This document shows positions 1 to 22,640 of a stretch of DNA of 64,000 nucleotides, piece after piece. The notes beneath the pieces are model-generated. The model was not told the origin of the DNA and did not search any database. It saw nothing but the letters and a program-made list of their open reading frames with translations. This DNA is from Oceanimonas sp. GK1. Lineage in GTDB: Bacteria; Pseudomonadota; Gammaproteobacteria; Enterobacterales; Aeromonadaceae. A program made the position numbers and the translations under genes. Where the stretch lies: contig NC_016745.1 in the NCBI RefSeq assembly GCF_000243075.1, forward strand, positions 1,753,001 through 1,817,000, read 5' to 3'. Numbering within the stretch: position 1 is the stretch's first letter; each line of letters opens with the position of its first letter.

Positions 1-1192
1 CCTTCATGTCGGGAGTGACGTCGGCCAGCAGGGTGGGCATAAAGAAGTTCTCGCCCGGTGCCTGGCTCTGGTCGCCGGCGATCAGCCGGGCGCCTTTGGC
101 GATGGCGTCGTCAACGATGTCCTGGGCCTTGATCACGGCCTGGCGGAAGATCAGCGGGCCCATGGTCACGCCGTCATCAAAGCCGTTGCCTACCTTGATG
201 GTGGCCATTTCGGCGGCGAAGGCGGTGAGGAAGGCCTCATACTTGTCGCGCGGCACAAAAATGCGGTTGGCGGCCAGGCAGTCCTGACCGGCGGTCTGGA
301 ACTTGGCATCCACGGCGGCCTTGGCGGCGGCGGTGATGTCCATGTCGGGCAGCACGATAAAGGGAGCGTTGCCGCCGAGCTCCATGGAGCATTTCTTGAC
401 GGTGGACGCGGCCTGCTCCAGCAGCAGTTTGCCGACCCGGGTGGAGCCGGTGAAGGACAGCGCCTTGACCTTGTCGGACTGGCACAGCACGCCGCACACC
501 TCGGCGCCGTCGCCGGGAATGACGTTATAGACCCCAGCCGGAAAACCGGCGCGCTCGGCCAGCTCCGCCAGCGCCAGCGCCGAAAACGGGGTTTCATTGG
601 CGGGCTTGACCAGCACGGTACAGCCGATGGCCAGGGCTGCCGCCGCCTTGCGGGTGATCATGGCATGGGGGAAGTTCCAGGGCGTGATCAGTGCTGCTAC
701 GCCGATAGGCTCGCGCAGGGTGGCCAGCTGGGCATTGGGAATATGGCTGGGAATGGTATCGCCATAGGCCCGGCGGGCCTCTTCGGCAAACCAGCGAATA
801 AAGGAAGCACCATAGTTCACTTCACCGCGGGCATCCTCCAGGGACTTGCCCTGCTCCAGTACCATCAGGGTGGCCAGATCTTCCTTGTGCTCCAGGATCA
901 GATCGTGCCAGCGCATCAGAATGGCGGCGCGTTCGTCGGCCATCAGCGCCCGCCAGGCGGGCATGGCCTGATCGGCGGCATCAATGGCCAGCCGGACTTG
1001 CTGTGGCTGCAGTTGGGTGCAGTGGCCAATCACGTCATTGGTGGCCGGATTCAGCACCGCCACGTCCTGAGTATCGGCGACCCATTTGCCGTTGACATAG
1101 GCCAGCTCGCGCACCAGACGGGGATCTTGCAGGTAAGGCATGATGGCTTCGGTGACCTTGCTGTCGAAGTTGTGCTGTAAGGAAAGACTCAT
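1..1192 (-). CDS. doeC: Aldehyde (aspartate-semialdehyde type) dehydrogenase, DoeC-like, 3' end outside window
   Basis: NAD(P)-dependent aldehyde dehydrogenase of the GabD/succinate-semialdehyde dehydrogenase superfamily. The ATG at 1190-1192 starts MSLSLQHNFD, and about 397 codons lie in the window; the C-terminus is cut off by the window edge. Visible family motifs are the ITPWNFPHAM cofactor-region motif, FTGSTRVGK, the general-base Glu in ELGGNAPF and the catalytic Cys at about residue 305 in AGQDCLAAN. Ectoine degradation (doe/eut) clusters of other bacteria carry such an enzyme (DoeC/Ssd) that oxidises aspartate semialdehyde made from diaminobutyrate. The doeA, doeB and doeX neighbours on the same strand support that role. 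From sequence alone it could also be a general GabD. Confidence 0.82.
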   Translation of the reverse strand, partial: MSLSLQHNFDSKVTEAIMPYLQDPRLVRELAYVNGKWVADTQDVAVLNPATNDVIGHCTQLQPQQVRLAIDAADQAMPAWRALMADERAAILMRWHDLILEHKEDLATLMVLEQGKSLEDARGEVNYGASFIRWFAEEARRAYGDTIPSHIPNAQLATLREPIGVAALITPWNFPHAMITRKAAAALAIGCTVLVKPANETPFSALALAELAERAGFPAGVYNVIPGDGAEVCGVLCQSDKVKALSFTGSTRVGKLLLEQAASTVKKCSMELGGNAPFIVLPDMDITAAAKAAVDAKFQTAGQDCLAANRIFVPRDKYEAFLTAFAAEMATIKVGNGFDDGVTMGPLIFRQAVIKAQDIVDDAIAKGARLIAGDQSQAPGENFFMPTLLADVTPDMK

Positions 1193-1387: not shown

Positions 1388-1867
1388 TCAGGCCAGCATG
1401 TTGGGCAGAAATTCCAGCTTAAAGGCTTGCTGCTTGATGGTTTTGGTGACGATATAGGTGAAATAGCGTTCAATGCCGAGGTCGGACACCAGCCAGCTGT
1501 CCATCAGGCGCTGGTAGTGATCGATGCCTTCGCTCATGACCCGAAGCATGTAATCCACACCGCCGCCGGTGGCGTAGCAGTCCACCACTTCGTCGCACTG
1601 CATCATGGCTTTTTCGAAACGCTGAAAGGCGTCGGCATTGTGCTGCTTGAGGGTCACTTCCACCATGACCGGGGTGCGTTTGAACAAGGCTTCGGTATTG
1701 ATGCGGGCGCCGTAACCCTGAATGATGCCGGCATCTTCCAGTCGCTTGACCCGCTCCCAGCAAGGACTGACCGACAGGTTGATGGCTTCGGCCAGGCCCG
1801 ATTTGGTGATTCGGCCCTGCTCATGCAGTATGTGCAGAATTTTGATGTCGTAGCGATCCAGACGCAT
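1388..1867 (-). CDS. doeX: Lrp/AsnC-family regulator of ectoine catabolism
   Basis: A 159-residue Lrp/AsnC-type transcription factor. It has an N-terminal winged helix (MRLDRYDIKILHILHEQGR, then a recognition-helix region NLSVSPCWERVKRLEDAG) and a C-terminal RAM/Lrp sensor domain with the YATGGGVDYML segment. I chose the ATG at 1865-1867, preceded by a weak AGGTAG, because upstream in-frame sequence has no family match and runs into doeB. DoeX/AsnC of Halomonas and Roseobacter-type ectoine clusters are Lrp proteins encoded next to doeA and doeB, so I infer that it controls this locus. The likely effector is an ectoine breakdown intermediate such as N-acetyl-diaminobutyrate or DABA. Confidence 0.82.
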   Translation of the reverse strand: MRLDRYDIKILHILHEQGRITKSGLAEAINLSVSPCWERVKRLEDAGIIQGYGARINTEALFKRTPVMVEVTLKQHNADAFQRFEKAMMQCDEVVDCYATGGGVDYMLRVMSEGIDHYQRLMDSWLVSDLGIERYFTYIVTKTIKQQAFKLEFLPNMLA

Positions 1868-1964
1868 TGTTACTACCTGTTTACGTTTTTGAAGACTTTC
1901 CGCAGTATACAAAGGGCTGCCGGTCGTCACTAGCAGCCCCTGCAGGATTAATTGTAAACTTTTT

Positions 1965-2966
1965 TTAACAAGCGACTTCAACCGCCAGGACGGCGAAGGT
2001 GTCACCAATGTCGATCAGTGCCGGATGGCGTCGACCGGCCAGGATGCCGTCGCGCCGGGCCCGGTATTCCGTCGGAGGCTGGCCGGTACGCTCCAGGGTG
2101 TGGATGGAGGCCACCAGATCCCCTTGCTTGACTTGGTCGCCCAGGGCCACGTGCATCTCCAGCAGTCCCTTGTGCTCGCTCATCATGTAGCAGGAGCCAT
2201 CGGGCATGTCCAGCAGGCGCGGCGGCGTGTCGGGCAACTGGTAGTCGCCCTGGGTGATGCCGGTGAAAAGCAGAAAGTTATGCAATCCCCGGTCGACCAT
2301 GGCAATGGTTTCCGGGGTGCTGGTGCCCCCGCCGCACAGTTCGGTGGTCACAAAGACCTTGCCCTGGGATTCCACCGCCGTGTCATACAAAGAGGCGGTG
2401 TCGAGTTCAAACATCACCACCGTATTGGGCGCGCCGAATAACTTGGCGCCCTTGATACAGGCCTCTTCCTGGGCCGCGTCCGGCAACCGGTGAGCGGCGG
2501 AAAACGGTATAAAGTCCAGGGTCTTGCCACCGGAGTGAATGTCCAGGGCATAGTCACACATCGGCACCAGGTAGCGGTTGAAGTAATCGGCAATGCGCTG
2601 GGTCATGGTGCCTGCCGGATCCCCCGGAAAGCTGCGGTTCATGTTGCCCTTGTCGATGGGAGAGGTGCGGCTGCCCTGCTGGACGGCCGGATAGTTCATG
2701 GCCGGCACTATGATCACCCGGCCCTGGATCTGCTCCGGCTCCAGACGGTTGGCCAGCTTGAGCAGGCCGGTAATGCCCTCGTATTCGTCGCCATGGTTGC
2801 CGCCGGTGAGCAGGGCGGTGGGACCGTCGCCGTTTTTGATCACGGTGATCGGAATCATGATGCAACCCCAGGCCGACTGATCGCTGGAGTAGGGCAGCTT
2901 CAGGAAACCGTGCTGTTTGCCGTTTTGCTCGAAATCGACAGTGGGAGTGATGGTCGTTGCCTGCAT
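1965..2966 (-). CDS. doeB: N-acetyl-L-2,4-diaminobutyrate deacetylase
   Basis: A 333-residue zinc hydrolase of the succinylglutamate desuccinylase/aspartoacylase (AstE/AspA, M14-like) family. Metal ligands are visible as H58 and E61 in GGNHGDEYEG and H144 in DIHSGG; a probable catalytic Glu lies in VTTELCGGG near residue 209. DoeB/EutE removes the acetyl group from N-acetyl-diaminobutyrate, the product of ectoine ring opening by DoeA, giving DABA and acetate. It starts 6 bp downstream of the doeA stop on the same strand, so the two are almost certainly co-transcribed, and DoeA-DoeB are known to work as a hydrolase-deacetylase pair. The assignment rests on family motifs and operon partner together. 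Confidence 0.9.
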   Translation of the reverse strand: MQATTITPTVDFEQNGKQHGFLKLPYSSDQSAWGCIMIPITVIKNGDGPTALLTGGNHGDEYEGITGLLKLANRLEPEQIQGRVIIVPAMNYPAVQQGSRTSPIDKGNMNRSFPGDPAGTMTQRIADYFNRYLVPMCDYALDIHSGGKTLDFIPFSAAHRLPDAAQEEACIKGAKLFGAPNTVVMFELDTASLYDTAVESQGKVFVTTELCGGGTSTPETIAMVDRGLHNFLLFTGITQGDYQLPDTPPRLLDMPDGSCYMMSEHKGLLEMHVALGDQVKQGDLVASIHTLERTGQPPTEYRARRDGILAGRRHPALIDIGDTFAVLAVEVAC

Positions 2967-2972
2967 GCGTCG

Positions 2973-4160
2973 TTACCTCTTCACAAAAAGTTGGCGCGGA
3001 TAGTTACACAGGGTTTCCACCCCGGTGTCGGTGATGACGATACTCTCGGTGGTCTCTATGCCCCAGTCATCCAACCACAACCCTGGCATAAAGTGGAAGG
3101 TCATGCCCGGCTCCAGTATGGTCTGATCGGTGTTACGCAGGCTCATGGTGCGCTCGCCCCAGTCCGGCGGATAGCTCAGACCGATGGGATAACCGCAGCG
3201 CGCGCCTTCCCGGTCGAAGCCATATTCGGCCAGAGTGGCATTGAGTGCGTTGGCGATATCGGCACAACGGTTGCCGGGCTTGGCCGCCGCCAGGCCGGCC
3301 TCGAGGCCGGCGTTCAGGGCCTCGGCGCCGCGCAGAAAGTCATCGGTGGGCTGGCCCAGGTAGATGGTGCGGGACAGCGGGCAATGGTAACGGCGGTGAC
3401 AGCCGGCGATCTCAAAGAAGGTCCCTTCATTGTTGTTGAACGGGCGCTCATCCCAGGTCAGGTGGGGCGCCGACGCATCCTTGCCGGAAGGCAGCATGGG
3501 CACAATGGCCGGGTAGTCGCCGAAGTGGCCGTCGTGGCCTTCCATCGCCACCCGGTATATTTCGGCCACCAGCCGGTTTTTGGGCAAGCCGGGCTCGATC
3601 ATCTCAAAGGCGGCCTGGTGCATGTTTTCCACAATACGGGCGGCAATGCGCATGTATTTCAGCTCGGTTTCCGACTTGACCGCCCGGCACCAGTTGACCA
3701 GGGAAGTGGCGTCCACCAGGTTCGCCTCCGGCAGGTTTTCCGTCAGCGCCAGATAGGCGGTGGGGCTGAAATAATAATTGTCCATTTCGATGCCGATGTT
3801 GCCCCGGGCCCAGTCCCTGGGTTTGAGGATCTGGTTGGCCAGGTATTCCATGGCGTGCAGCGGCGGGTTCATCACATAGTGGTCCGGATACCAGGTGATG
3901 TTTTCTTCCTGCAGATAGACGGTACGCTTGGCACCATGAGAGTCCATTTGCCGGCCATACCAGATGGGCTCGCCGGCCATGCCGACCACCACCACCTGGG
4001 GCGTGTAAAAGGACCAGCCGTCATAGCCGGTAAGCCAGGCGATATTGGACGGATCATGCACGATCAGGGTGTGCATTTCGTGCCTGTCCATGGCGGCGCG
4101 TACCTTGGCCAGGCGCTGCTGATATTCTTCGATGGCGAAATTGAGAATATGGTTATGCAT
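2973..4160 (-). CDS. doeA: Ectoine hydrolase (M24 peptidase fold), copy 1
   Basis: A 395-residue pita-bread (M24/creatinase-like) hydrolase that opens the ectoine ring to N-acetyl-diaminobutyrate. The start is the ATG at 4158-4160 (MHNHILNFAIEEYQQRLAKV). This aligns in register with the N-terminus of the second copy at 8104-9285, and the longer in-frame extension has no counterpart there. Characteristic segments are LTGYDGWSFYTPQ, YPDHYVMNPP and YPPDWGERTMSLR; many usual M24 metal ligands are altered, as is known for DoeA/EutD. First gene of the minus-strand doeA-doeB-doeX-doeC block, facing the TRAP transporter across a 901-bp gap. The gene order matches known ectoine catabolic clusters, so the call is firm. 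Confidence 0.92.
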   Translation of the reverse strand: MHNHILNFAIEEYQQRLAKVRAAMDRHEMHTLIVHDPSNIAWLTGYDGWSFYTPQVVVVGMAGEPIWYGRQMDSHGAKRTVYLQEENITWYPDHYVMNPPLHAMEYLANQILKPRDWARGNIGIEMDNYYFSPTAYLALTENLPEANLVDATSLVNWCRAVKSETELKYMRIAARIVENMHQAAFEMIEPGLPKNRLVAEIYRVAMEGHDGHFGDYPAIVPMLPSGKDASAPHLTWDERPFNNNEGTFFEIAGCHRRYHCPLSRTIYLGQPTDDFLRGAEALNAGLEAGLAAAKPGNRCADIANALNATLAEYGFDREGARCGYPIGLSYPPDWGERTMSLRNTDQTILEPGMTFHFMPGLWLDDWGIETTESIVITDTGVETLCNYPRQLFVKR

Positions 4161-5061
4161 TGGATACTTCTCATCAATGACAATCGGGACCACCAAACCC
4201 TGTCTGCCCCTGTGGACAAACAGTAAGTGGAGTTTTTTACGTTTACAGGAAAGTCGCGGTTGAGTCGGCAATATTGGCCGGCTCAACCGCACATCAGCGA
4301 TCGAGCGAGAACAGGCCTTGAATCCGGAGGAATGTTATTCTTGCCGGCGAAATGACAGAATGAAATAAGATTGAGCTTTGGCAGTATTCATCCATGGGGC
4401 TTCTCTCGCCAGGCGTTATGTCTAATCGACATGGTTAAAACCGTTCATCCATAACAATAACGATAAGATTACCATTCCCTTTTCCTTATTTCGTATTGTG
4501 GCGAGCACAATAGGTCGAAATGGTGAATGTTCAAAAGTTATTGTCCAGTTCTTTTTTCGGCGCCAGTACACACCAGCGTATTTAATGTTGTCAATTGTTT
4601 TTTTTGCCTTTGCTCATAAAACTTTGACGTCCGTCTTAAATACTGTCGTATCCGGGAAACAGGATGGCCGACATGCACCTGATTATGACGATAGCTGGTT
4701 CGTTTGTCTGCCCACCGGCAGGGCGCTCGGCACGATATCCGGGCCGTTCGGGCACTCGGTTAAAGGGGTGTTAAATTCCATAAAATCCAGTAATAACAAT
4801 CGATTAGGTGGATTTTTTGGTTGCCGGAGTTGCTCCTGCCAGTCACACATTTTCTGTTGTGGGGGGCAATAACAGAAGAAGTCGCAACATCCGGCCCCGT
4901 GACACGAAAAAAAATTTTCTCCGGCTGCGGTTAGAGTACCCAAGCACCCGAATCGCGACCTGTGAAAACAGTGCAAATTAGCAGTAACGAACAGAGGATG
5001 TCCGGAGCAACGGCCAACACCATCCTTTAATGTTAAATGAACCATCAGAGGGATTTCTGAT
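4161..5061. promoter_or_regulatory. Divergent control region between doeA and the ectoine TRAP operon
   Basis: A 901-bp gap between two divergently transcribed operons, with no convincing gene. It is clearly AT-richer than the flanking doe genes, especially 4430-4670, and contains several T- and A-tracts. A small inverted repeat ATTGTG-N5-CACAAT lies at 4495-4511, a possible regulator site. The teaA ribosome-binding region is GAGGGATTTCTGAT just before 5062. Promoters for both directions must lie here; I cannot place -10/-35 boxes with confidence. A spacer this long suggests multiple regulators (DoeX plus osmotic or carbon control), which is inference. Confidence 0.55.
4495..4511. promoter_or_regulatory. 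Inverted repeat in the doeA/teaA control region
   Basis: ATTGTG-GCGAG-CACAAT, a perfect 6-bp inverted repeat with a 5-base spacer, about 335 bp upstream of doeA and 550 bp upstream of teaA, within the AT-rich part of the spacer. Possible operator; no specific regulator can be named. Confidence 0.35.
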
Positions 5062-6081
5062 ATGAGTAATACACCATGGAATCTGGCTGCCAAGCTTTCT
5101 GCTGTGGCCCTGGCTTTTTGTTCTGTACAAGTGAATGCTGCTACCTGGCGTTATGCGATAGAAGAAAGTATGACTGAGGTACAGGGCGTATATGCAACCA
5201 AGTTCAAGGAAGTCATCGAAGCCAACTCCAGTCATAAAGTAAATATTTATCCCTTTGGTACCCTGGGGGAGTCCGTCGATGTTATGGAGCAGGCTCAGGC
5301 GGGTATATTGCAATTTGTTGATCAGTCCCCCGGTTTTACCGGCAGCCTGATCCCCGAAGCTCAGGTTTTCCTGATGCCTTATGTGCTGCCCGAAAAGCAA
5401 AGCGAAATTAATTATTTCTTTAAAAACTCCAAGGTGATTAACGAGGACTTTCCCAAGCTTTACGCAGAGAAAGATCTGGAACTGTTGAGTATGTTTCCGG
5501 AAGGCCGGGTGCATATCACTACCCAGCAGCCATTTGAATCTCCCGAAGATCTGGACGGCGTCAAGGTGCGGGTGATGACCTCGCCTTTGCTGGTTGAAAC
5601 CTACAAGTCGTTTGGTGCCGTGCCCACGCCGCTACCCTGGGGGGAAGTATTTGGTGCGCTGCAAACCAAGATGATTCAGGGGCAGGAAAACCCCATGTTC
5701 TATATCGAATCCACCAAGATGTATGAAGTCTCCGAGGTGATCACCGATATTGGTCATAACATCTTCACGACCGCAGTCATGGCCAATAAACATTTCTACG
5801 ACAGCTTGTCGGCGGAAGATCAGGCGTTGATTCAGCAAGCGATCAGCGAAGCCACGGATTACATTCTTGAGTATCAGCAGGGGCTGGAAGAAGAGTCCAT
5901 TGCCAAGGTCAAAGCGGCCAAGCCGAGTATCACACTGGTTTCCCTCGACGAGGACAAGCGGGTGCGTTTCCGTGAAGCCTCAGCGCCGGTAAAAGATAAG
6001 TTCGTTGCCATGACCGGCGAATCGGGCAAAGCCATCCTTGAACAGATGGAAGTGGATCTGAAAGCAGCAATCGGCAAGTAA
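5062..6081 (+). CDS. teaA: TRAP transporter substrate-binding protein, ectoine/hydroxyectoine type (TeaA/UehA-like)
   Basis: A 339-residue periplasmic DctP-family receptor with a signal peptide ending near VQVNAATW. The mature N-terminus TWRYAIEES, the segment LQFVDQSPGFTGSLIPEAQ, and PTPLPWGEVFGALQT followed by GQENPMFYIES match, as I recall it, the Halomonas elongata TeaA sequence. They include the aromatic and charged positions known to bind ectoine (mature N-terminal Glu, the Trp in PLPWGE, the Phe and Asn in ENPMF). First gene of a TRAP operon divergent from doeABXC. Unlike doe it is noticeably AT-rich. A perfect hairpin follows its stop. No UspA-type teaD gene is seen after the operon. 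Confidence 0.88.
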   Translation: MSNTPWNLAAKLSAVALAFCSVQVNAATWRYAIEESMTEVQGVYATKFKEVIEANSSHKVNIYPFGTLGESVDVMEQAQAGILQFVDQSPGFTGSLIPEAQVFLMPYVLPEKQSEINYFFKNSKVINEDFPKLYAEKDLELLSMFPEGRVHITTQQPFESPEDLDGVKVRVMTSPLLVETYKSFGAVPTPLPWGEVFGALQTKMIQGQENPMFYIESTKMYEVSEVITDIGHNIFTTAVMANKHFYDSLSAEDQALIQQAISEATDYILEYQQGLEEESIAKVKAAKPSITLVSLDEDKRVRFREASAPVKDKFVAMTGESGKAILEQMEVDLKAAIGK

Positions 6082-6091
6082 GCTCCTTTTT

Positions 6092-6115
6092 GTGGTGCAG
6101 GCGTGCCTGCACCAC
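6092..6115 (+). promoter_or_regulatory. Intercistronic hairpin after teaA
   Basis: A perfect 10-bp inverted repeat, GTGGTGCAGG / CCTGCACCAC with a 4-base CGTG loop, between the binding-protein stop and teaB. No T-run follows, so it is unlikely to be a full terminator. More likely it protects the 3' end of the teaA message so that the binding protein is made in excess over the permease, a common arrangement in uptake operons. Confidence 0.6.
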
Positions 6116-6145
6116 AGTGGTACTACAAAACTCAAGGACCTGCTG

Positions 6146-6709
6146 ATGAAAACCTCGTCCCCCAGCCGACTAAAGTCGGGTTACCATCACTTTATTGCGG
6201 CTATTAATAAAGTGGAAGGCGCCATACTGATGATCAGTGTGCTGCTCATGGCGTTCAATAACATTGCCAATGTTGTCGGGCGTGTTTTTTTCAATCACAG
6301 TTTGTTTTTTGCGGAAGAAGTAAACAGCATTCTGATTATTCTGGTGACATTTGCTGGAACCAGTTTTGCGGCCCGTCACGGAAGCCATATTCGCATGACG
6401 GCGATATTTGACGCCCTGCCTAAAAAGTATCAGAAATTGCTGATGATTATTATTTCCTTTGTTACCGCGCTCTGTATCTTTGTGATCGGCTACTTCTCAA
6501 TCAAATATATATTGTGGATAGCGCCGCGTGGACAAGTGCTGCCCGCCTTGCAAATACCGGTATACAGTATTTATGTATGGGCACCGATCAGTTTGTTTAT
6601 CACCGGCATGGAATATTTTGTCGCCGGAATAAAGAACCTGTTTAATACCGAGATTTTCCTGGCCAGTGAAATTACCACCCAGCAACATGAAACTGTGGCA
6701 GATATTTAG
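6146..6709 (+). CDS. teaB: TRAP transporter small membrane subunit (DctQ/TeaB-like)
   Basis: A 187-residue DctQ-family membrane protein with four hydrophobic segments (roughly residues 25-48, 58-78, 98-122 and 138-165). It has the typical FAEEVNSILIILVTFAGTSF and AARHGSHIRMTAIFD stretches. The start is the ATG at 6146, 7 nt after an AAGGA ribosome site; in-frame sequence upstream overlaps the hairpin after teaA. DctQ subunits pair with the large DctM subunit to form the Na+-driven permease. It sits between the binding protein and teaC in the standard P-Q-M order and shares their lower GC. Substrate assignment comes only from the TeaA-like receptor next door. Confidence 0.88.
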   Translation: MKTSSPSRLKSGYHHFIAAINKVEGAILMISVLLMAFNNIANVVGRVFFNHSLFFAEEVNSILIILVTFAGTSFAARHGSHIRMTAIFDALPKKYQKLLMIIISFVTALCIFVIGYFSIKYILWIAPRGQVLPALQIPVYSIYVWAPISLFITGMEYFVAGIKNLFNTEIFLASEITTQQHETVADI

Positions 6710-6718
6710 GGGATAAAA

Positions 6719-8011
6719 ATGGACATGACCTCATTAATGCTGGTAGCCATGGTCTTGCTGCTGTTGCTCGGGTTTCCGATGGTGATCCCCATGCTGGCGG
6801 CCACCCTTATCGGCTTTTACGTACAATTCAACGGATTTGACAGCTCTCACTTCATGATCCAGCAGATGTTTGCCGGCATTCGGCCAGCCTCGCTGATCGC
6901 CGTGCCCATGTTCATTCTGGCGGCGGACATCATGACCAAGGGGCGTTCTGCGAACAAGCTGATTGAAATGGTGATGACCTATATCGGCCACTATAAAGGA
7001 GGGCTAGCAGTCAGCACGGCCGCGGCCTGCACCATGTTTGGTGCCGTGTCCGGCTCAACCCAGGCCACGGTGGTGGCGGTCGGCTCACCGCTCCATCCAA
7101 AGCTTATCCAGAATGGTTACAAGGATTCGTTCTCTCTCTCCCTGATCATCAGTGCCAGTGGCATCGCCCTGCTCATTCCACCGAGTATCGGTATGATTAT
7201 TTATGGTGGTATTTCACAGACCTCCATTTCAGAGTTGTTTATTGCGGGTATCGTGCCTGGCTTGCTGATCCTGATTTTCTTTTCTGCTTATTCCGTGTTC
7301 TTCGCCGTTAAACACCAGGTACCGACGGTCAGCAAGGCCACATGGGAAGAAAAGGTCAAGGCAACCCGGGCAGCCATCTGGCCACTTGGTTTTCCCATTA
7401 TTGTGGTGATTGGTATTTATGGCGGTCTGTTCAGCCCGACCGAGGCCGCATCGGTTTGTGTGCTCTATGCCCTGTTGCTGGAGGTTGTCGTATTCCGTGA
7501 GTTAACGTTCAAGGACGTGCTCGGCATTGCCAAGTCCACCGGTCTGATTACGGCGGTGGTGTTTATTCTGGTGGCGGCGGGCAGTGCCTTTTCATGGGTG
7601 ATTTCATTTGCACAGATCCCGCAGGCCATTATGGCCGGGCTGGGGCTGAATGAAGCATCTGAAGTCGGCTTGCTGCTGGCAATTTCCATTGCCTTCTTTG
7701 TTGGCTGCATGTTTGTCGATTCCATTGTGGTTATTTTGATCCTGGTGCCGATTTTTCTGCCCGAAATTGAACGGCTGGAACTGGATAAAGTACTGATTGG
7801 CGTCATCATTACCCTGCAGGTTGCCATTGGCGCGGTCACGCCACCATTCGGTTGCAATATCTTTACCGCCGTGGCGGTATTCCGCCGGCGTTATATGGAT
7901 GTGGTTAAGGGATCTCTGCCGTTTGTGATTATGCTGGTCACGGTTGCCGTGTTGCTGATACTGATGCCGCAGATTGCCCTGTTTTTGCGTGACCTGGCTT
8001 TCGCCAAATAA
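6719..8011 (+). CDS. teaC: TRAP transporter large permease (DctM/TeaC-like)
   Basis: A 430-residue DctM-family membrane protein with about 12 hydrophobic segments and the family's GAVSGSTQATVVAVGSPLHP and LLIPPSIGMIIYG motifs. It starts 9 bp after teaB behind an AGGGGA site. It carries substrate across the inner membrane using the sodium gradient, with TeaA delivering ligand. In H. elongata, TeaABC is the ectoine/hydroxyectoine uptake system; the receptor sequence and catabolic neighbours suggest the same substrates. It is followed by a 13-bp perfect hairpin and then a second ectoine-hydrolase gene in the same direction, so uptake and breakdown appear to be one transcriptional unit. Confidence 0.88.
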   Translation: MDMTSLMLVAMVLLLLLGFPMVIPMLAATLIGFYVQFNGFDSSHFMIQQMFAGIRPASLIAVPMFILAADIMTKGRSANKLIEMVMTYIGHYKGGLAVSTAAACTMFGAVSGSTQATVVAVGSPLHPKLIQNGYKDSFSLSLIISASGIALLIPPSIGMIIYGGISQTSISELFIAGIVPGLLILIFFSAYSVFFAVKHQVPTVSKATWEEKVKATRAAIWPLGFPIIVVIGIYGGLFSPTEAASVCVLYALLLEVVVFRELTFKDVLGIAKSTGLITAVVFILVAAGSAFSWVISFAQIPQAIMAGLGLNEASEVGLLLAISIAFFVGCMFVDSIVVILILVPIFLPEIERLELDKVLIGVIITLQVAIGAVTPPFGCNIFTAVAVFRRRYMDVVKGSLPFVIMLVTVAVLLILMPQIALFLRDLAFAK

Positions 8012-8036
8012 GCCATCCATCAATCTTTACTAAAGC

Positions 8037-8066
8037 GACACACCGGCAAGTGTTTGCCGGTGTGTC
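8037..8066 (+). promoter_or_regulatory. 13-bp perfect hairpin between teaC and the second doeA-like gene
   Basis: GACACACCGGCAA and its exact complement TTGCCGGTGTGTC flank a 4-base loop. No T-tract follows, and the next gene starts only 38 bp on. It is therefore a good candidate for partial attenuation or mRNA end protection. A GTG inside the loop is in frame with the next gene but would be a poor start, which helped me choose the downstream GTG. Confidence 0.6.
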
Positions 8067-8103
8067 CGCCCGTGTCAGTGACCCTGAGTTGGAGTTTATC
8101 TCT

Positions 8104-9285
8104 GTGAAGTATCAACCGCTATTCAGTCTTGATGAATATCAACAACGTTTGTACCAGACCCGGCAACGCATGCTGGAGCAGGGCATTGATGTGCTGATTG
8201 TCAGTGAACCTGCCAATCTGTATTACCTGACGGGCTATGATGCCTGGTCATTTTATACTCCCCAGTATGCGCTGGTAAGTCAGGACTGGGATAAGCCGCT
8301 GTGTGTGGTGCGCGGTCAGGATGTGAATGGTGCCAGGCTGACCAGTTATCTCGGGGATGAGCATATTATCGGTTATTCCGATCACTATATTCAGAATCCG
8401 GTCGCCCATTGCATGGCGTTTATCGCCGAGCTGCTGAGGGAGCGGGGCAAGGCAAGCAGCCGGATCGGCTATGAGGGCGACAGTTTCTTCTTCAGCGGCC
8501 GCAGCCTGCTGCAGTTGCAGCACCATCTGCCCAACGCCACCCTGGTGGATGCCGATGCCCTGGTGAACTGGGTGCGCAGCGTCAAGTCCGATGCCGAAAT
8601 CGGTTATATGCGCCAGGCCGCCCGTTTGACCGAGCTGACCATGGCCAGGGCCATTGAGAAGATCAAACCCGGTGTCCGGCTGGCAGACGTGGCGGCGGAG
8701 GTGTATGCCAGCTCGGTAGCCGGGCTGGAAGAGTATGCGGGAGAGTATGCGGCCATCGCTCCGCTGATCCCGGCCGGCGCCGGCACCTCCTGCCCCCATG
8801 TGACCTGGCGGGATGAGGTGTACAAGACGGGGGACTGCTCCACCCTGGAGATATCCGGCGTCAAGGCCCGTTACCACGCACCCCAGAGCCGTACGGTGTT
8901 TCTCGGCCAGCCCAACCCCAGGGCCTATGACACGGTGCAAATCGTGCTTGAGGGCATTGAGGCCGTGCTCGAGACCGCCAGGGAAGGGGTCTATGCTCAC
9001 CAGGTTCATGCCGCCTGGGACGCGGTGATCTCCCGGCACGGCATCGTCAAGGACTCCCGCTGCGGTTACAGCATTGGTATCGGCTATCCGCCCGACTGGG
9101 GCGAGCGCACCATCAGTTTCCGGCCCATCGACAACACCCTGCTGACCGAAAACGTCACCATGCACTTTATGCCCGGGGTCTGGTTCGATGACTGGGGAGT
9201 GGCCATCACCGAGTCTATCCGTATCACCAAAACCGGGGCCGAATGCCTGTGCAACACCCCGCGTGAGCTGTTTATCATTGACTGA
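8104..9285 (+). CDS. Second DoeA-like (ectoine/hydroxyectoine) hydrolase
   Basis: A 393-residue M24-fold hydrolase paralogous to the doeA copy at 2973-4160, sharing LFSLDEYQQRL, LTGYDAWSFYTPQ, YSDHYIQNP, GYPPDWGERTISF and FMPGVWFDDWG. I place the start at the GTG at 8104, 9 nt after GGAG, because it aligns with copy 1. An upstream in-frame GTG falls in a hairpin loop. The first few hundred bases are AT-rich like the TRAP genes; the rest rises to the surrounding GC. It lies directly downstream of the ectoine-type TRAP genes and upstream of an aldolase, a dehydrogenase and an amidohydrolase. I infer that it acts on a related ring such as 5-hydroxyectoine; redundancy with copy 1 is the alternative. 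Confidence 0.82.
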   Translation: MKYQPLFSLDEYQQRLYQTRQRMLEQGIDVLIVSEPANLYYLTGYDAWSFYTPQYALVSQDWDKPLCVVRGQDVNGARLTSYLGDEHIIGYSDHYIQNPVAHCMAFIAELLRERGKASSRIGYEGDSFFFSGRSLLQLQHHLPNATLVDADALVNWVRSVKSDAEIGYMRQAARLTELTMARAIEKIKPGVRLADVAAEVYASSVAGLEEYAGEYAAIAPLIPAGAGTSCPHVTWRDEVYKTGDCSTLEISGVKARYHAPQSRTVFLGQPNPRAYDTVQIVLEGIEAVLETAREGVYAHQVHAAWDAVISRHGIVKDSRCGYSIGIGYPPDWGERTISFRPIDNTLLTENVTMHFMPGVWFDDWGVAITESIRITKTGAECLCNTPRELFIID

Positions 9286-9291
9286 ATGGCG

Positions 9292-9315
9292 GGCACCGGC
9301 TTTCCGGCCGGTGCC
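9292..9315 (+). promoter_or_regulatory. Hairpin between the second doeA-like gene and the aldolase gene
   Basis: Perfect 9-bp arms GGCACCGGC / GCCGGTGCC with a 6-base loop, 15 bp before the next start codon. It is the third perfect hairpin at a junction in this operon. Position and lack of a T-run suggest control of message stability or translation, not termination. Confidence 0.5.
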
Positions 9316-9329
9316 TTACAGGAGAGGTT

Positions 9330-10376
9330 ATGACCACATCGCCGATGTTTGCCAGCGACAACGCCGCCGGAGTGCATCCCGCGGTTCTGGCGGCGCTGGC
9401 CGAGGCCAACCGGGGCCACGCCCTGGGCTACGGGGCCGATGACTATACCGCCCGGGCCAATCAGGCCTTCAAGCGACTCTTTGGCGAGCAGGCCGAAAGC
9501 TTTCTGGTGTTTAACGGCACCGGCGCCAATGTGATCGCGCTCAAGGGGCTGCTGCGCTCTTACGAGGCGGTGTTTTGCTCCGCCGAGTCCCACTTGTGGA
9601 TAGATGAAGCCGGCGCCCCCGAGCAGTTCCTCGGTGCCAAGCTGATCACCCTGCCGGCAGACAACGGCAAAATCCGCCTCGACGACATGCTGCCCCGGCT
9701 GGGGGACATCGGTTTTCAGCACCGCAGCCAGCCCAGGGTCATTTCCATTGCCCAGTGCACCGAGCGCGGCTCCGTCTATCGCCGGGACGAACTCCAGGCG
9801 ATCTGTGACTTTGCCCGCCGGCACGGCTTTTATGTGCATATCGACGGTGCCCGTATTCACAATGCGGTGGCGGCACTGGGCGGTGATTGCAAGCGGCTGT
9901 TTACCGACATCGGGGTGGACGTGGTGTCCTTTGGCGGCACCAAGAACGGCCTGATGATGGGGGAGGCGGTGGTGGTGCTCAACCCCGAGCTGCAGGCGAA
10001 CTACGCGGTGATCCGCAAGCATGGCATGCAGCTGGCGTCCAAAATGCGCTTTCTTGCCGCCCAGTTTCTGGCCTATTTCGACCAGGATCTCTGGCTGCAC
10101 AATGCCGCCCACGCCAACCGCATGGCGGCCTGCCTGGCCGAGCAATTGCACACCGTGCCCGGCGCCCGTCTGATGGTACCGGCAGAAACCAACATGCTGT
10201 TTGTGGAGATCCCCAATGCGTGGATAGCGCCATTGCAGCAACAGGCCTATTTCCATGTGTGGCGGGCCGACAGCCGGCCTGGGTTCTCCGAAGTCCGGCT
10301 GGTGATGTCCTTTGATGTTACCCAGGCCGACATCGAGGCCTTTATCGGAACAATGCGGCGGCTGGCCACCGGCTGA
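9330..10376 (+). CDS. Threonine-aldolase-family (beta-hydroxy-alpha-amino acid) lyase
   Basis: A 348-residue PLP enzyme of the low-specificity L-threonine aldolase/beta-eliminating lyase family. The PLP lysine is K205 in SFGGTKNGLM and the pyridine-contacting Asp is D172 in HIDGAR; the N-terminus MFASDNAAGVHP is the usual ASDN start of the family. GGAGAGG lies 2-8 nt before the ATG. These enzymes cleave beta-hydroxy-alpha-amino acids into glycine and an aldehyde. Here it sits between an ectoine-ring hydrolase and an aldehyde dehydrogenase. Hydroxyectoine, once ring-opened, is a beta-hydroxy-alpha-amino acid, so cleavage to glycine plus (N-acetyl)aminoacetaldehyde is a natural hypothesis. Plain threonine or allo-threonine cleavage is the default alternative. 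Confidence 0.85.
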   Translation: MTTSPMFASDNAAGVHPAVLAALAEANRGHALGYGADDYTARANQAFKRLFGEQAESFLVFNGTGANVIALKGLLRSYEAVFCSAESHLWIDEAGAPEQFLGAKLITLPADNGKIRLDDMLPRLGDIGFQHRSQPRVISIAQCTERGSVYRRDELQAICDFARRHGFYVHIDGARIHNAVAALGGDCKRLFTDIGVDVVSFGGTKNGLMMGEAVVVLNPELQANYAVIRKHGMQLASKMRFLAAQFLAYFDQDLWLHNAAHANRMAACLAEQLHTVPGARLMVPAETNMLFVEIPNAWIAPLQQQAYFHVWRADSRPGFSEVRLVMSFDVTQADIEAFIGTMRRLATG

Positions 10377-10479
10377 GACAAACCACGACGCGGTGCGCCC
10401 ATGTATCAGGCAACGGATATGCCGGTGACGAGGGTCACTGACATGGCAAGTGCGGATACCTCATTCAAGGAGAACAATG

Positions 10480-11913
10480 ATGGCGATGGTTAGACTGAAC
10501 AACCCCTTTACCGGTGACCGGGTATTTGAGCAGGAATCCGCCAGCTATGGCGAGGTGGCGGGCAAGCTTACTCGGGCCCGATCTGCCTACCGGCGCTGGT
10601 CCAAGGTGCCGGTCGCGACGCGGGCGCGTCTGCTGCGAGAGGCGCTGGCGGTGTTTGAGGCGGCCCGGGACGAGATCAGTGACGCCATTGCCCGTGAAAT
10701 GGGCAAACCCAAAACGGCGGCGGCCGACGAGCTGAGCTACATGATCGAGCGGGCGCAATACATGTGCCGTTTTGCCGAGGACGGGGCGCTAGCGGATCTG
10801 GATCTCTCGGCCTATCACGATGCCGACTTCCAGGGACGTATCCGCTATCGGGGCAAGGGAGTGGTGTACATCATCAGCCCCTGGAATTATCCGTTGTTTA
10901 CCGCCATCAACGGCGTGATTTGTGCGTTGTTGAGCGGCAATACCGTGATGCTCAAACACACCACCACGCCTTCGGCAGGCCGGCTGTTTGAGCGGGCGTT
11001 TCACCACCTCGGCGAGTACCGGGATCTGCTGTTCAATATCACCGTCGACTACGAGGTGTCCGCCGCCATTATCGAGCGGGGCGACATCAACCATGTGGTG
11101 TTTACCGGCTCGGTCCAGGGCGGGCGGGTGATCCAGCAGAGCATTGCCCGGCGGGCGATGAACGAATGGTTGGAATCGCCCTTTATCGACGTCTCCCTGG
11201 AGCTTGGCAGCAACGATGCCTGCTATGTCGCCGAAGACGCCGATCTGGAGCAGGCCCTGTTGTGGGCGGTCAAGATAGGCCGGCTGCACAATTCCGGCCA
11301 GTCCTGCTGTGCCGTCAAGCGGGTCTATGTGCATGAGTCCTTATACGAGGATTTCATTGCCGGCGCCCGGCGCATCATGGCTGAGGAGGTCAATGGTGAT
11401 CCGCTGAAGGCGGGCACCACCCTGGGGCCGCTGTTCGGCGGCACGCCCGCCATCGAGGGGTTGCTGGCGCTGGTGGATGATGCCCTGACCAAGGGCGCCA
11501 GGCTGGAAATAGGGGGATGCCATGAAACCATTGACGGCTGCGACTTTATTCAGCCGACGCTGGTAAGCGGCGTGGATCACGGCATGCGCATCATGAAAGA
11601 GGAAACCTTTGGACCGGTCCTGCCGGTGATGAAGGTTAGCCGCGACGAAGAGGCGTTCGGGCTGGTGGGGGATACCCGCTTCGGGTTGACCGCCTCCATT
11701 TTTACCCGTTCCCGGGCCCGGGCCGATGCCTTTATGAGCGCCCTCGACTTTGGCACCCTGTTTGTGAACCGCTGCAACGTCGTGGATGCCCGGCTGGCCT
11801 GGACCGGCCTGCGCCACTCCGGTAACGGCTCGCTGGCGCTGTCGCCGGAAGGACTGCGGGCCTTCAGCAACAAGTGTTCACTCAATATCAACGGTGCCGG
11901 ACTGGAGGAATAA
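10480..11913 (+). CDS. NAD(P)-dependent aldehyde dehydrogenase
   Basis: A 477-residue ALDH-superfamily protein. It shows the IISPWNYPLF cofactor segment, VFTGSVQGGR, the general base E241 in SLELGSND and the catalytic C276 in NSGQSCCAV. There are adjacent start codons at 10477 and 10480; the second has better spacing (5 nt) to AAGGAGA. It is about 100 bp after the aldolase and 2 bp before the amidohydrolase. It is closest in feel to succinate-semialdehyde/glycolaldehyde-type dehydrogenases, but I cannot name a substrate from sequence. In the proposed pathway it would oxidise the aldolase's aldehyde product (aminoacetaldehyde or its N-acetyl form) to glycine or N-acetylglycine. This differs from the doeC-like enzyme at the left edge. 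Confidence 0.83.
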   Translation: MAMVRLNNPFTGDRVFEQESASYGEVAGKLTRARSAYRRWSKVPVATRARLLREALAVFEAARDEISDAIAREMGKPKTAAADELSYMIERAQYMCRFAEDGALADLDLSAYHDADFQGRIRYRGKGVVYIISPWNYPLFTAINGVICALLSGNTVMLKHTTTPSAGRLFERAFHHLGEYRDLLFNITVDYEVSAAIIERGDINHVVFTGSVQGGRVIQQSIARRAMNEWLESPFIDVSLELGSNDACYVAEDADLEQALLWAVKIGRLHNSGQSCCAVKRVYVHESLYEDFIAGARRIMAEEVNGDPLKAGTTLGPLFGGTPAIEGLLALVDDALTKGARLEIGGCHETIDGCDFIQPTLVSGVDHGMRIMKEETFGPVLPVMKVSRDEEAFGLVGDTRFGLTASIFTRSRARADAFMSALDFGTLFVNRCNVVDARLAWTGLRHSGNGSLALSPEGLRAFSNKCSLNINGAGLEE

Positions 11914-11915
11914 GC

Positions 11916-13223
11916 ATGGCCTATTACGACCGGCTGAACGAGCAGGCCCGGGCGGTGCTGGATTATGTCAGCACTTTCCGGCACGACTTTCATCGTCATC
12001 CCGAGCTGTCCTGGTGTGAATTCCGCACCACCGCCCTGTTGTGCCGGGAGCTGGCGCGTCTGGGTTATCAGCTTCGCTGGGGGCGCCCGTTGTGGGGCCC
12101 CCTTCAGCCCCATAATCTGCCGCCCCGGGAGCAGTTGCAGGCGGCCTTTGCCGCCGCCCGGGCGGAGTTGGGGGAAGACGATCCCTACCTGGCCGAGATG
12201 GAAGGGGGCTATACCGGGCTGGTGGCCGAGCTGATCTGCGATGAGGACGGCCCTCACCAAGGGTTTCGCTTCGACATGGATGCGCTGCCCGTCCACGAAA
12301 GCGGCGGCTGTGATCACCCGCCCAGCGCGGCGGGGTTTGCCTCGGCGGTGGCAGGACGGATGCATGCCTGTGGCCACGATGGCCACATGGCCATTGGCCT
12401 CGGGCTGGCCCGGCTGCTGGCGGAGCACCGGCACCAGCTCAGGGGCCGGTTCACGCTGTTTTTTCAGCCGGCGGAAGAAGTGGCCGGCGGCGGTGTGCAC
12501 TTTGCCCGTTTGCCCCAGCTGCAGGGGGTGGAGCGGTTTTACTCGGTGCATCTCGGGATTGTCGACAAGCCGGTGCTGGTGTGTGACGCCCGCTGGATTG
12601 CGGGCAGCGTGTTTGATGTGCGTTTGGGCGGACGCCCGGCCCATGCGGGCAATAACCCGCAGTACGGGCGTAATGCCCTGTTGGCGGCCTGCCAGGCCGT
12701 CACCGGTCTGTATGGCATTGCCCGGCACGGTGAGGGAGCGTCCAGGGTCAATGTGGGCAGCATGCACGCCGACAATCCCAGCAACATCATTTGTGACGAA
12801 GCGCGTTTTCGCTTTGAGGTGCGCGGGGCGAGCAACGCCATTCGTGACTTCATGGTCACCAGAGCCAAAGAGGTGATCGAAGGGGCGGCGGCCATGCAGC
12901 AGGTGGAGGTGGAGATGGTGCCGGTCACGCGCTTTGAAAACCACCCCAACCACCCGCAGCTGGCGGCCTGGATCAGGGAGCAGGCACAGGCCTTCGGGCT
13001 GAACGACGCCGAGATCCAGGACAGTTATCTGGTGCCGGCCAGTGAAGATGCGACCTTTATGACCCGGGTGGTCAATGAGCAGGGAGGGCAGGGCTGTCAC
13101 CTGGTGTTCGGTTGCCCGGTGGCGGGCGGGCACCATAACAGCCGCTTCGACATACCGGATTCCCTGCTGGCCTGGGGCAGCAGTTTTTATTTCCAGCTGG
13201 CGCGCCAAGCACAGCAAGGCTGA
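11916..13223 (+). CDS. M20-family amidohydrolase, AbgA-like
   Basis: A 435-residue M20D-type metallo-amidohydrolase resembling AbgA, the A subunit of aminobenzoyl-glutamate hydrolase. It has FRHDFHRHPELSWCEFRT, metal-site residues in MHACGHDGH (C152, H154), the catalytic pair E187-E188 in FQPAEEVAGG, and AGGHHNSRFD near the end. It starts 2 bp after the dehydrogenase stop behind GGAGGA. No AbgB or AbgT partner is present. M20D enzymes cleave amide bonds of N-acyl amino acids. As the last gene of the TRAP/hydrolase operon it could deacetylate N-acetylglycine or an N-acetylated hydroxy-diaminobutyrate. That substrate is inference. Confidence 0.83.
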   Translation: MAYYDRLNEQARAVLDYVSTFRHDFHRHPELSWCEFRTTALLCRELARLGYQLRWGRPLWGPLQPHNLPPREQLQAAFAAARAELGEDDPYLAEMEGGYTGLVAELICDEDGPHQGFRFDMDALPVHESGGCDHPPSAAGFASAVAGRMHACGHDGHMAIGLGLARLLAEHRHQLRGRFTLFFQPAEEVAGGGVHFARLPQLQGVERFYSVHLGIVDKPVLVCDARWIAGSVFDVRLGGRPAHAGNNPQYGRNALLAACQAVTGLYGIARHGEGASRVNVGSMHADNPSNIICDEARFRFEVRGASNAIRDFMVTRAKEVIEGAAAMQQVEVEMVPVTRFENHPNHPQLAAWIREQAQAFGLNDAEIQDSYLVPASEDATFMTRVVNEQGGQGCHLVFGCPVAGGHHNSRFDIPDSLLAWGSSFYFQLARQAQQG

Positions 13224-13258
13224 CCGGGGCTTCCCGGGCGCGGCCAGGAGCAGAACAA

Positions 13259-13287
13259 CAAAAACGGGCCATTCGGCCCGTTTTTCA
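13259..13287. terminator. Bidirectional rho-independent terminator
   Basis: AAAACGGGCC, a 4-base ATTC loop and GGCCCGTTTT, with A-tract on one side and T-tract on the other. It closes the plus-strand TRAP-to-amidohydrolase operon and also lies just past the stop of the minus-strand nhaC gene, so it can serve both. Confidence 0.9.
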
Positions 13288-18698: not shown

Positions 18699-19754
18699 TC
18701 AGTCGGCGGCGGAGCGGCGCAACTGCCTGGCCTGGCTGGGGGAAACCCCGAAAAAGTCCTTGAAGCAGTGGCTGAAGTGGGTGGAGCTGGCAAAGCCGCA
18801 GGCCACGGCAATGTTGGCGATGCTGTCGTCGCTTTGCAGCAGCAGCCGGCGGGCCTGGGTGATGCGCAGCTCCAGATAATAGCGCGACGGCGTGGCCTGC
18901 AGGTGGGTCTGAAACAGCCGTTCCACCCGCCGCCGTGACAGCCCCACGTAACCGGCCAGCTCCTCAATGCCGAGGGGCTCCTCGATATTGCTGTTCATCA
19001 GCCGCAGCAGATCCCTGAGCGGGCCGGGCAGGGCCGGGTCGTTTTCCGCCAGGGTCAGCCGGGTCTCGCTGCTGTCGGCCAGGCGGTCGCTGCTCAGGAT
19101 CTCGCGAATGGCCCGCACCGTGTCGGGGCCGTGCAGCCGTTCAACCATCATCAGCATCATCTCCAGGGCGCTGCTGGGGCCGGCACTGGTCAGGGTGCGG
19201 GCATCCACCACCATGGCCTGATTGGAAACGTCCACTGCGGGAAAGTGCTCCCGGGCAAAGCTGTGGTTGTCGGGATGAATGGCACAGCACAGCCCGTCCA
19301 GCGCGCCGGCGTAGGCCAGGGCCACGGCGCCGTTCCACAGCCCGCCCAGCACTTTTTCCCGCCGGGCCGCCAGCCTGAGCTTGCGGGAGAGCTCGGGATG
19401 CTCGGCCAGGCTGCAGCGAAAACCGCCGCACACCACCACCACGTCGAGGGCCTCGGTGCCGTCCAGGGGCAGGGCGTTCAGGGTCTGGGTGGCGGAAATA
19501 TCGATGGCCAGGTCGCTGCGCACCGTGGTGCTGTCGAGGCCGTAACTGGTAATGGTGAACAGCGGCGTGGACTGCACCAGGTTGGCGGTGACCAGGGCGT
19601 CGACGGCGGCGGTGAAGGCCATCATCGAAAAATGGGGCAGCAGCACAAAACCGACCCGCACCGGCGTATTGCCGGCCGGGCGGGCGGGCAGAAAGGCACT
19701 GTTGGTGTCACGCAGCCGGTGGCTGAAGTGACGTTTTTCATTGACTTGAGACAT
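18699..19754 (-). CDS. GlxA-family AraC-type regulator (GbdR/SouR-like)
   Basis: A 351-residue transcription factor with an N-terminal DJ-1/PfpI (class I glutamine amidotransferase-like) sensor domain (RVGFVLLPHFSMMAFTAAVD and VVCGGF) and a C-terminal AraC double helix-turn-helix (LAGYVGLSRRRVERLFQ; ACGFASSTHFSHCFKDFFG). The ATG at 19752-19754 is chosen because upstream in-frame sequence shows no family similarity. Proteins of this architecture (GbdR, SouR) sense dimethylglycine, betaine or sarcosine and activate glycine-betaine/sarcosine catabolism. It faces glyA-soxBDAG-purU across a 318-bp divergent spacer, so I infer that it activates that operon. The exact ligand cannot be read from sequence. 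Confidence 0.85.
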   Translation of the reverse strand: MSQVNEKRHFSHRLRDTNSAFLPARPAGNTPVRVGFVLLPHFSMMAFTAAVDALVTANLVQSTPLFTITSYGLDSTTVRSDLAIDISATQTLNALPLDGTEALDVVVVCGGFRCSLAEHPELSRKLRLAARREKVLGGLWNGAVALAYAGALDGLCCAIHPDNHSFAREHFPAVDVSNQAMVVDARTLTSAGPSSALEMMLMMVERLHGPDTVRAIREILSSDRLADSSETRLTLAENDPALPGPLRDLLRLMNSNIEEPLGIEELAGYVGLSRRRVERLFQTHLQATPSRYYLELRITQARRLLLQSDDSIANIAVACGFASSTHFSHCFKDFFGVSPSQARQLRRSAAD

Positions 19755-20072
19755 GGTGTTGCATGATTGGGGCGCCGTGGCTGGCGACGTCGCCGTGGTG
19801 AAACTGCGTTGACCGGAGTGTACCCCGCCGGCGTGGCCTTTGCACCCTTTGCACCCCCGCCGCCGGCGGTGGGCAGGGTGGCGCCAGATCACGAATGTTG
19901 CCGGAATGTGATTTTTTGTCGCAAATACGCAGCATTCGGCCGCAACCAGTCATCTGCGGGGATACCGGCGGCAGTAGTATGCCATCAACGCATCATCGGC
20001 AGACCGGGCAACGGCGCCGAACAAATGAAAACACACCGGGCCTGGGCCCGGTGCGAACAAGGAGGTCACGAC
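19755..20072. promoter_or_regulatory. Divergent promoter region with glyA leader hairpin
   Basis: A 318-bp spacer between the GlxA-type regulator and glyA. A GC-rich inverted repeat CACCGGGCC / GGCCCGGTG (20034-20053, 2-base spacer) sits 7 bp before the GGAGG ribosome site of glyA. It would lie in the mRNA leader. I looked for the paired aptamer features of a glycine riboswitch and did not see them. Operators for the regulator are expected but not identifiable by eye. Confidence 0.45.
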
Positions 20073-21326: not shown

Positions 21327-21374
21327 GCGGTTTCACCCACTCAGGACACGGATTTCAATCAACAGGTGACCCTC

Positions 21375-22628: not shown

Positions 22629-22640
22629 AGGAGAGAGACA

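Follow-up and report, generated by a model that had tools for sequence, protein, structure and literature searches.

Here we describe a block of four genes in the genome of Oceanimonas sp. GK1, situated on a stretch of 64,000 nucleotides (C1:1753001–1817000 of the 3.53-Mb genome; hereafter the window), the left edge of which falls inside a standard ectoine-degradation cluster. On the plus strand, uehP, uehQ and uehM, the genes of a TRAP importer, are followed by genes for a second DoeA-like hydrolase (doeA2), a lyase of the threonine aldolase family (LTA), an aldehyde dehydrogenase (ALDH) and an AbgA-like amidohydrolase of the M20 family, and the run is closed by an inverted repeat (Table 1). 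Gene order, common direction and the single terminator behind an ectoine-type TRAP transporter are as the first-pass annotation of this DNA had described them. Among solved chains, the binding protein UehP scored highest against 3fxb (425 bits), 3gyy (379 bits) and 2vpn (375 bits), the next chain reaching 183 bits; we take 3fxb to be UehA of Ruegeria pomeroyi and 3gyy and 2vpn to be TeaA of Halomonas elongata. By homology, UehPQM is an importer of the ectoine/hydroxyectoine type.

In two congeneric genomes (G101 and G335), alignment with the window extends to positions 8006–8010, at the end of uehM, and resumes at 13251–13260 for ∼8 kb, the main aligned pieces being 77–88% identical at the DNA level (blastn). 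The junction in these genomes comprises only 46–74 bases, including an inverted repeat like the terminator of the window, and directly follows uehM. Since the four genes are missing as one piece between collinear flanks, they behave as one module, and the data support doeA2-LTA-ALDH-M20 being a single evolutionary module tied to an ectoine-type importer. A further module-less genome (G761) matches the window up to uehM and not beyond, and Zobellella denitrificans carries the module with a right flank different from that of the window; wherever the junction lies on one contig, the module stands directly after uehM.

The module genes are under purifying selection that is somewhat less tight than that on the importer genes: dN/dS values of the four genes are 0.085–0.193 when the window is compared to Z. 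denitrificans or Z. taiwanensis, and those of the importer genes 0.05–0.09. The pair Z. denitrificans–Z. taiwanensis gave values of 0.025–0.168 from very few changes. In a tree of eutD, eutE, ssd, atf and eutB, G101 groups with G335, and the group of Z. denitrificans, Z. iuensis and Z. taiwanensis includes the module-less genome G388; the window's genome lies between the two groups (the tree is unrooted). Given these placements of the window's genome and of G388, more than one gain or loss of the module is needed.

Table 1. Features at the locus (window coordinates; bit scores are to the models or solved chains named)
Feature	Position	Strand	Evidence
ssd/doeC-type aldehyde dehydrogenase, standard ectoine route	1..1192, continues past left window edge	-	adjoins eutDE, conserved in relatives
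asnC/doeX-type Lrp/AsnC regulator	1388..2008	-	PF01037, PF13412 over cut-off
eutE/doeB, N-acetyl-diaminobutyrate deacetylase	1965..2966	-	TIGR02994 479.7 bits (cut-off 402.7)
eutD/doeA, standard ectoine hydrolase	2973..4292	-	TIGR02993 616.8 bits (cut-off 613)
uehP, ectoine-type TRAP binding protein	5062..6081	+	3fxb 425 bits, 2vpn 375 bits
uehQ, TRAP small permease	6092..6709	+	PF04290
uehM, TRAP large permease	6719..8011	+	PF06808, TIGR00786 over cut-off
Stretch absent as one piece from G101 and G335, flanks collinear	8011..13250		blastn and junction letters
GC-rich hairpin CACCGGCAA..TTGCCGGTG, uehM-doeA2 gap	8041..8062	+	stem kept in 4 genomes, loop varies, no T run
doeA2, divergent ectoine-hydrolase-like M24 enzyme, module gene 1	8104..9285 (listed ORF from 8050)	+	TIGR02993 476.5 bits, under cut-off
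Threonine-aldolase-family PLP lyase (LTA), module gene 2	9330..10376	+	PF01212 169 bits
Aldehyde dehydrogenase (ALDH), module gene 3	10477..11913 (listed ORF from 10450)	+	PF00171 325.6 bits
AbgA-like M20 amidohydrolase, module gene 4	11916..13223 (listed ORF from 11874)	+	TIGR01891 247.5 bits
Terminator-like perfect inverted repeat between A and T runs, end of block	13260..13285		sequence inspection

The probable starts of doeA2 (GTG 8104), ALDH (ATG 10477) and M20 (ATG 11916) were chosen by eye from Shine-Dalgarno-like motifs and conservation. The listed start of doeA2, GTG 8050, sits within the conserved hairpin, which may adjust how strongly the module is expressed compared with the importer.

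Distribution and association with eutBCA

Searching 75 genomes of the family returned a DoeA-family protein (E ≤ 1e-60) in 20, four of which encode DoeA2 at 89–100% identity, namely the window's genome, Z. iuensis (G344), Z. denitrificans (G758) and Z. taiwanensis (G766). The whole four-gene set is present in 4/75 family genomes, all belonging to one genus, that of Z. denitrificans, Z. taiwanensis and Z. iuensis, and LTA was found in none of the eight module-less DoeA regions opened within this genus. A sample of 394 genomes of the order contained two with LTA matches above 80% identity; the copy ranking next (43%; G255) sits in an unrelated neighbourhood. A contig scan with two exact seven-residue patterns of ALDH, which sees close relatives only and leaves wider absence unproven, retrieved three Zobellella loci and 11 ALDHs (32–39% identity) without DoeA on their stretches.

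The first-pass annotation had reported that no eutB/eutC-like gene is seen in the window and had set the genes against the eutABC route. The former statement is literally correct and is an artefact of the window edge: atf, eutB, eutC and eutA follow to the left in the same cluster, with eutB starting 1.9 kb and eutA ending 4.8 kb beyond it. EutB exceeds two curated cut-offs (NF005680, 475.5 bits, cut-off 413; TIGR02991, 414.5 bits, cut-off 413.35). EutC reaches 403.9 of 471.65 bits with TIGR02992 and passes the cyclodeaminase model NF006141 (465.5 bits, cut-off 408), and EutA reaches 196.2 of 318 bits with TIGR02990; the cluster position fits for both. Within the family, eutB was found at 83–100% identity in eight of the 75 genomes (seven more matches, at 36–37%, are other dehydratases), that is, in 4/4 module genomes versus 4/16 module-less genomes with DoeA (Fisher one-sided p = 0.014, relatedness ignored). 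Looking for the set together with a lack of eutBC, as had been suggested, thus turned up eutB in every module genome. The idea that the module replaces missing eutBC is rejected, eutBCA lying just outside the window and being kept in all four module genomes. The module accompanies the hydroxyectoine genes and is a branch added beside eutDE-ssd-atf-eutBCA, not a stand-in for it. In the module-less G761 (L179, 18052–19022), eutB appears as two overlapping pieces in different frames and may be broken.

Enzymes of the module

The assignment of the four products to a second DoeA-like hydrolase, an LTA, an ALDH and an AbgA-like M20 enzyme was borne out by family and structure matches. DoeA2 shares 43–45% identity with EutD of the same genomes and, with 476.5 bits, fails the EutD/DoeA equivalog model TIGR02993 that the first copy passes. 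Its best solved relatives are 6twj and 6twk (355 bits). Glu255 of 6twk, which we take to be the catalytic glutamate, is conserved in DoeA2, where 'STLEISGVKARYHAP' aligns against 'FFEIAGVYKRYHAP' (E267 is invariant in the alignment), and the stretch YPPDWGERT is retained. In a tree of 76 rows, DoeA2 forms a separate lineage (support 100/97) apart from a 45-row EutD clade (100/100), the DoeA2 branch meeting another long branch, which leaves its exact position close to the root uncertain (L176 and L177 have no EutD row in this tree). As a lineage of its own, DoeA2 is not a recent duplicate of EutD. A third DoeA/EutD-like gene of the same genome (G000:C1:988798–989961; locus L074, 9789–10976, minus strand) is sister to the genus's EutD and scores 583.9 bits with TIGR02993 (cut-off 613); no further eut, ueh or module match was found on its 20-kb stretch, and copies of the gene are present in G335, G326, G101 and G759.

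LTA passes PF01212 (169.1 bits, cut-off 27) and aligns with the solved L-threonine/phenylserine-type aldolases 5vye, 7yvr, 9l9g, 7w0i and 1v72 at 221–245 bits; as judged from these matches, it is closest to solved low-specificity threonine aldolases. Residues H88, D172, R175 and K205 are identical in the four module copies and in 27 other LTAs, and also align with 5vye; Lys205 is presumably the lysine that binds pyridoxal phosphate (PLP), and the other three presumably belong to the active site. W90, I91 and R146 are specific to the module, which makes them leads only, as the 27 LTAs compared mostly come from another LTA subgroup. The genome contains eight PF01212 matches, among which this is the only one of LTA type; two others are serine hydroxymethyltransferase (SHMT) and GcvP.

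ALDH passes PF00171 (Table 1) and no NCBIfam equivalog cut-off among the best 25 of 40 families, its highest score there being 263 bits with a succinic semialdehyde dehydrogenase model (cut-off 521). It is remote from all named types, and plasmid-borne relatives share at most 37% identity. The M20 enzyme passes TIGR01891 (cut-off 153.75), fails the DoeB2 deacetylase model NF038260 (158 of 550 bits), has its best solved match in 3io1, an aminobenzoyl-glutamate utilization protein (290 bits), and is 42% identical to the copy in an E. coli record; its family relationships make it AbgA-like.

A possible retro-aldol branch of hydroxyectoine breakdown

We propose, with a probability of roughly 55%, that the block is an accessory module for hydroxyectoine catabolism which was either inserted at the end of the ectoine importer operon or has been retained there. 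The gene families fit the ring opening, retro-aldol cleavage, aldehyde oxidation and deacylation put forward in the first-pass annotation, and the module would probably constitute a retro-aldol branch. Hydroxyectoine would be imported by UehPQM and its ring opened by DoeA2. LTA would then cut the resulting β-hydroxy-α-amino acid in a PLP-dependent retro-aldol reaction that frees glycine, ALDH would oxidise the two-carbon aldehyde, and M20 would remove the acetyl group. The net reaction, hydroxyectoine (C6H10N2O3) + 3 H2O + NAD(P)+ → 2 glycine + acetate + NAD(P)H, closes in mass balance. As gcvP and glyA (SHMT) are encoded in the genome, the glycine would be usable. The hydroxyectoine-making gene ectD is present in 1/75 family genomes and was not found in the window's genome, so that hydroxyectoine would be scavenged.

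Enzymes of the LTA family need a free α-amine and a β-hydroxyl, the latter being present in hydroxyectoine and absent from ectoine. Partly by our own reasoning, (4S,5S)-hydroxyectoine should give (2S,3S)-3-hydroxy-diaminobutyrate, presumably of the L-allo-threonine configuration, which low-specificity L-threonine aldolases accept. Two orders of steps can be envisaged. DoeA2 might release the γ-N-acetyl isomer, in which the α-amine is free; LTA would then yield glycine and N-acetylaminoacetaldehyde, ALDH would convert the latter to N-acetylglycine, and M20 would split this into glycine and acetate, a sequence of steps equal to the gene order. Alternatively, starting from the α-N-acetyl isomer, M20 would deacetylate first and LTA would follow, leaving free aminoacetaldehyde to ALDH. 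We slightly prefer the former order. It would hand M20 an N-acyl amino acid, and such compounds are known substrates of the M20 family. EutE being already encoded in the genome, an additional deacetylase points to another acetylated substrate. According to the accessible text of PMC5924519 and PMC3187862, DoeA of H. elongata forms α- and γ-acetyl-diaminobutyrate at 2:1, and the γ form is not a substrate of DoeB; an enzyme set consuming the γ form would therefore make sense. The fully specified version, in which a γ-selective hydrolase (DoeA2), an N-γ-acetyl-3-hydroxy-diaminobutyrate aldolase, an N-acetylaminoacetaldehyde dehydrogenase and an N-acetylglycine deacylase act in gene order, is put forward only tentatively.

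DoeA regions of haloarchaea speak for the order with early deacetylation. These resemble the window in that an AbgA-type M20 gene lies ≤10 kb from a gene for a DoeA-family hydrolase in 12/13 genomes, each with 2–5 such M20 genes (0.29 expected, relatedness ignored), and differ from it in that LTA occurs in 0/14 regions and EutB-like dehydratase matches are found in 7/14 instead.

Several observations weigh against the hydroxyectoine module proposed here. The activities of DoeA2, LTA, ALDH and M20 are predictions from gene content. LTA reaches no curated equivalog cut-off (GntG, NF041359, 80.9 of 230 bits; PRK10534, NF007825, 65.1 of 312 bits), and the substrate of ALDH is not deducible from its sequence. 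We know of no hydrolase with γ-selective ring opening, as the preferred order would demand, and the free aminoacetaldehyde of the other order is reactive. The haloarchaeal M20 gene linked to DoeA is the genome's best match to the M20 of the window in only 1/12 genomes (G1157), which disfavours simple orthology. All four module genomes encode EutABC and thus have no a priori need of a further route for hydroxyectoine. Co-occurrence of the set across genomes was the check suggested in the first-pass annotation; wide co-occurrence is not supported, as the set was seen in one genus only and may go back to as few as one founding event. DoeA-family matches were obtained from 66/398 genomes of the phylum, 20/369 of the class, 13/196 of an archaeal phylum and 5/296 of the phylum of Nocardia. 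LTA was found in 0/64 DoeA regions opened outside the genus (19 from the phylum, 18 from 17 genomes of the class and two more from the phylum, 14 archaeal, five actinobacterial, and six from 343 plasmid records), which are a subset of the DoeA matches, drawn from a sampling not centred on Bacillota, so that the remaining ones could hold LTA.

Other explanations of the module have to be weighed against these points. It could serve the degradation of another imported solute, a cyclic amidine or an N-acyl β-hydroxy amino acid, for which DoeA2 would be specialised. This would account for the long DoeA2 branch apart from the EutD clade and for its score under the EutD cut-off; moreover, TRAP binding proteins may have several ligands, and the standard EutD, reported to open hydroxyectoine too (work cited in the part of PMC8739950 available to us), is present, so that a second hydrolase could differ in substrate. 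The ectoine/hydroxyectoine type of the importer argues otherwise, as does the retention in DoeA2 of YPPDWGERT and of the residue matching Glu255 in 6twk. To our knowledge no alternative solute fits as well, and we hold this explanation to be unlikely.

Distinctly improbable, in our view, is that the grouping is weak, an ordinary low-specificity threonine aldolase turning threonine or allo-threonine into glycine and acetaldehyde, ALDH acting on the acetaldehyde, M20 being a general aminoacylase and DoeA2 an ectoine helper. The nearest solved relatives of LTA are indeed plain L-threonine aldolases, there is no second LTA-type gene among the PF01212 matches of the genome, and ALDH and M20 come from broad families, yet the four genes, which belong to an ectoine importer operon, come or go together, all are under purifying selection, and an M20 gene beside DoeA recurs in haloarchaea. 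The module might also support the standard route, DoeA2 and M20 salvaging γ-acetyl-diaminobutyrate as a dead end of ectoine breakdown, LTA and ALDH clearing side products that escape EutB/EutC. The formation of this compound by H. elongata DoeA, unused by DoeB as far as the accessible sources go, and the retention of eutB in 4/4 module genomes agree with such a role, which nevertheless leaves a dedicated LTA and ALDH in the same module unexplained, and EutBC would be the normal destination of a hydroxy intermediate; we regard this role as very improbable.

Known systems and related loci

An LTA-type route for hydroxyectoine was considered undescribed in the first-pass annotation, and no description was found in the literature searched (most subscription papers were outside reach), co-mentions of 'hydroxyectoine' and 'threonine aldolase' in two papers being unrelated. 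The four genes form a genuine, sharply bounded and novel gene set, with a narrow distribution as far as seen. As in standard ectoine/hydroxyectoine clusters, the importer type, EutD, EutE, AsnC, ssd, atf and eutBCA are found beside the module; unlike the window, such clusters, in the descriptions available to us, have no LTA-ALDH-M20 set with a second hydrolase. Bacillota clusters of the arrangement pucR-eutBCD-atf, abgB-thrA-adh, eutD (PMC13188858) likewise have a conserved block next to eutD in which genes for an amidohydrolase and an aldehyde dehydrogenase occur. This survey of 2026 leaves the amidohydrolase, 'thrA' and aldehyde dehydrogenase genes of the Gram-positive clusters unexplained, and 'aldolase' does not occur in the portion of its text at hand. 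The abgB-thrA-adh block was rejected as an instance of the same module: its middle gene is annotated as homoserine dehydrogenase (one record, a Priestia megaterium plasmid), and that plasmid stretch contains no LTA and an M20 distant from that of the window (25%, 89 bits).

The β-hydroxyaspartate cycle similarly has a dehydratase, a reductase and an aldolase (BhcB, BhcD and BhcC) around one β-hydroxy amino acid. EutB scores 195 bits to BhcB and EutC 162 bits to BhcD, both under cut-off; BhcC is of the D-threonine-aldolase type, with a fold unlike that of the module LTA, and the module, unlike the cycle, would act in degradation. GntG of guanitoxin biosynthesis, the best NCBIfam match of LTA although far under its cut-off, is described in the accessible sources as a retro-aldol enzyme and provides a precedent for LTA-like cleavage of a basic β-hydroxy amino acid.

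How the hydroxyl of hydroxyectoine is removed or bypassed is still open, to judge from the sources available. R. pomeroyi requires EutABC to use hydroxyectoine, their activities being given as unknown in the text at hand (PMC8739950); in an older proposal, as found in the accessible text of PMC5924519, EutA would invert the hydroxyl and EutB dehydrate the compound, after which EutC would reduce the product to ectoine. A natural retro-aldol bypass, if true, would be a second and simpler answer that needs no EutABC deoxygenation. Glycine rather than aspartate would then receive the carbon and nitrogen of this common marine osmolyte, and the γ-acetyl isomer left over by the known route would be consumed, its acetyl serving as protection up to the final reaction. 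For growth tests, a ready comparison is offered by genomes that are collinear except for the presence or absence of the module.

No EnuR/EhuR-type regulator gene is present in the gap between uehP and eutD of the window (4293–5061), and no match to such a regulator was obtained in G101 and G335 on the stretches searched. Z. iuensis (L043, 15219–16619) and Z. denitrificans do have one between these two genes, the Z. iuensis copy passing the EhuR model NF052286 (571.6 bits). DoeA2 has matches at E ≤ 1e-60 in 28 plasmid records of Klebsiella; one of the plasmid loci (L116, Klebsiella pneumoniae, CP110754.1, 24910–42106), on an IncFIB plasmid of a blood isolate, is an ectoine-use cluster with ehuABCD, doeA, doeB and eutB/eutC-like genes. 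Downstream in the window, positions 18699–25954 encode an AraC-type regulator with a DJ-1/PfpI domain, glyA, soxB and a sarcosine-oxidase-alpha-like gene, a region for conversion of glycine betaine/sarcosine to glycine that lies close to the putatively glycine-forming module.

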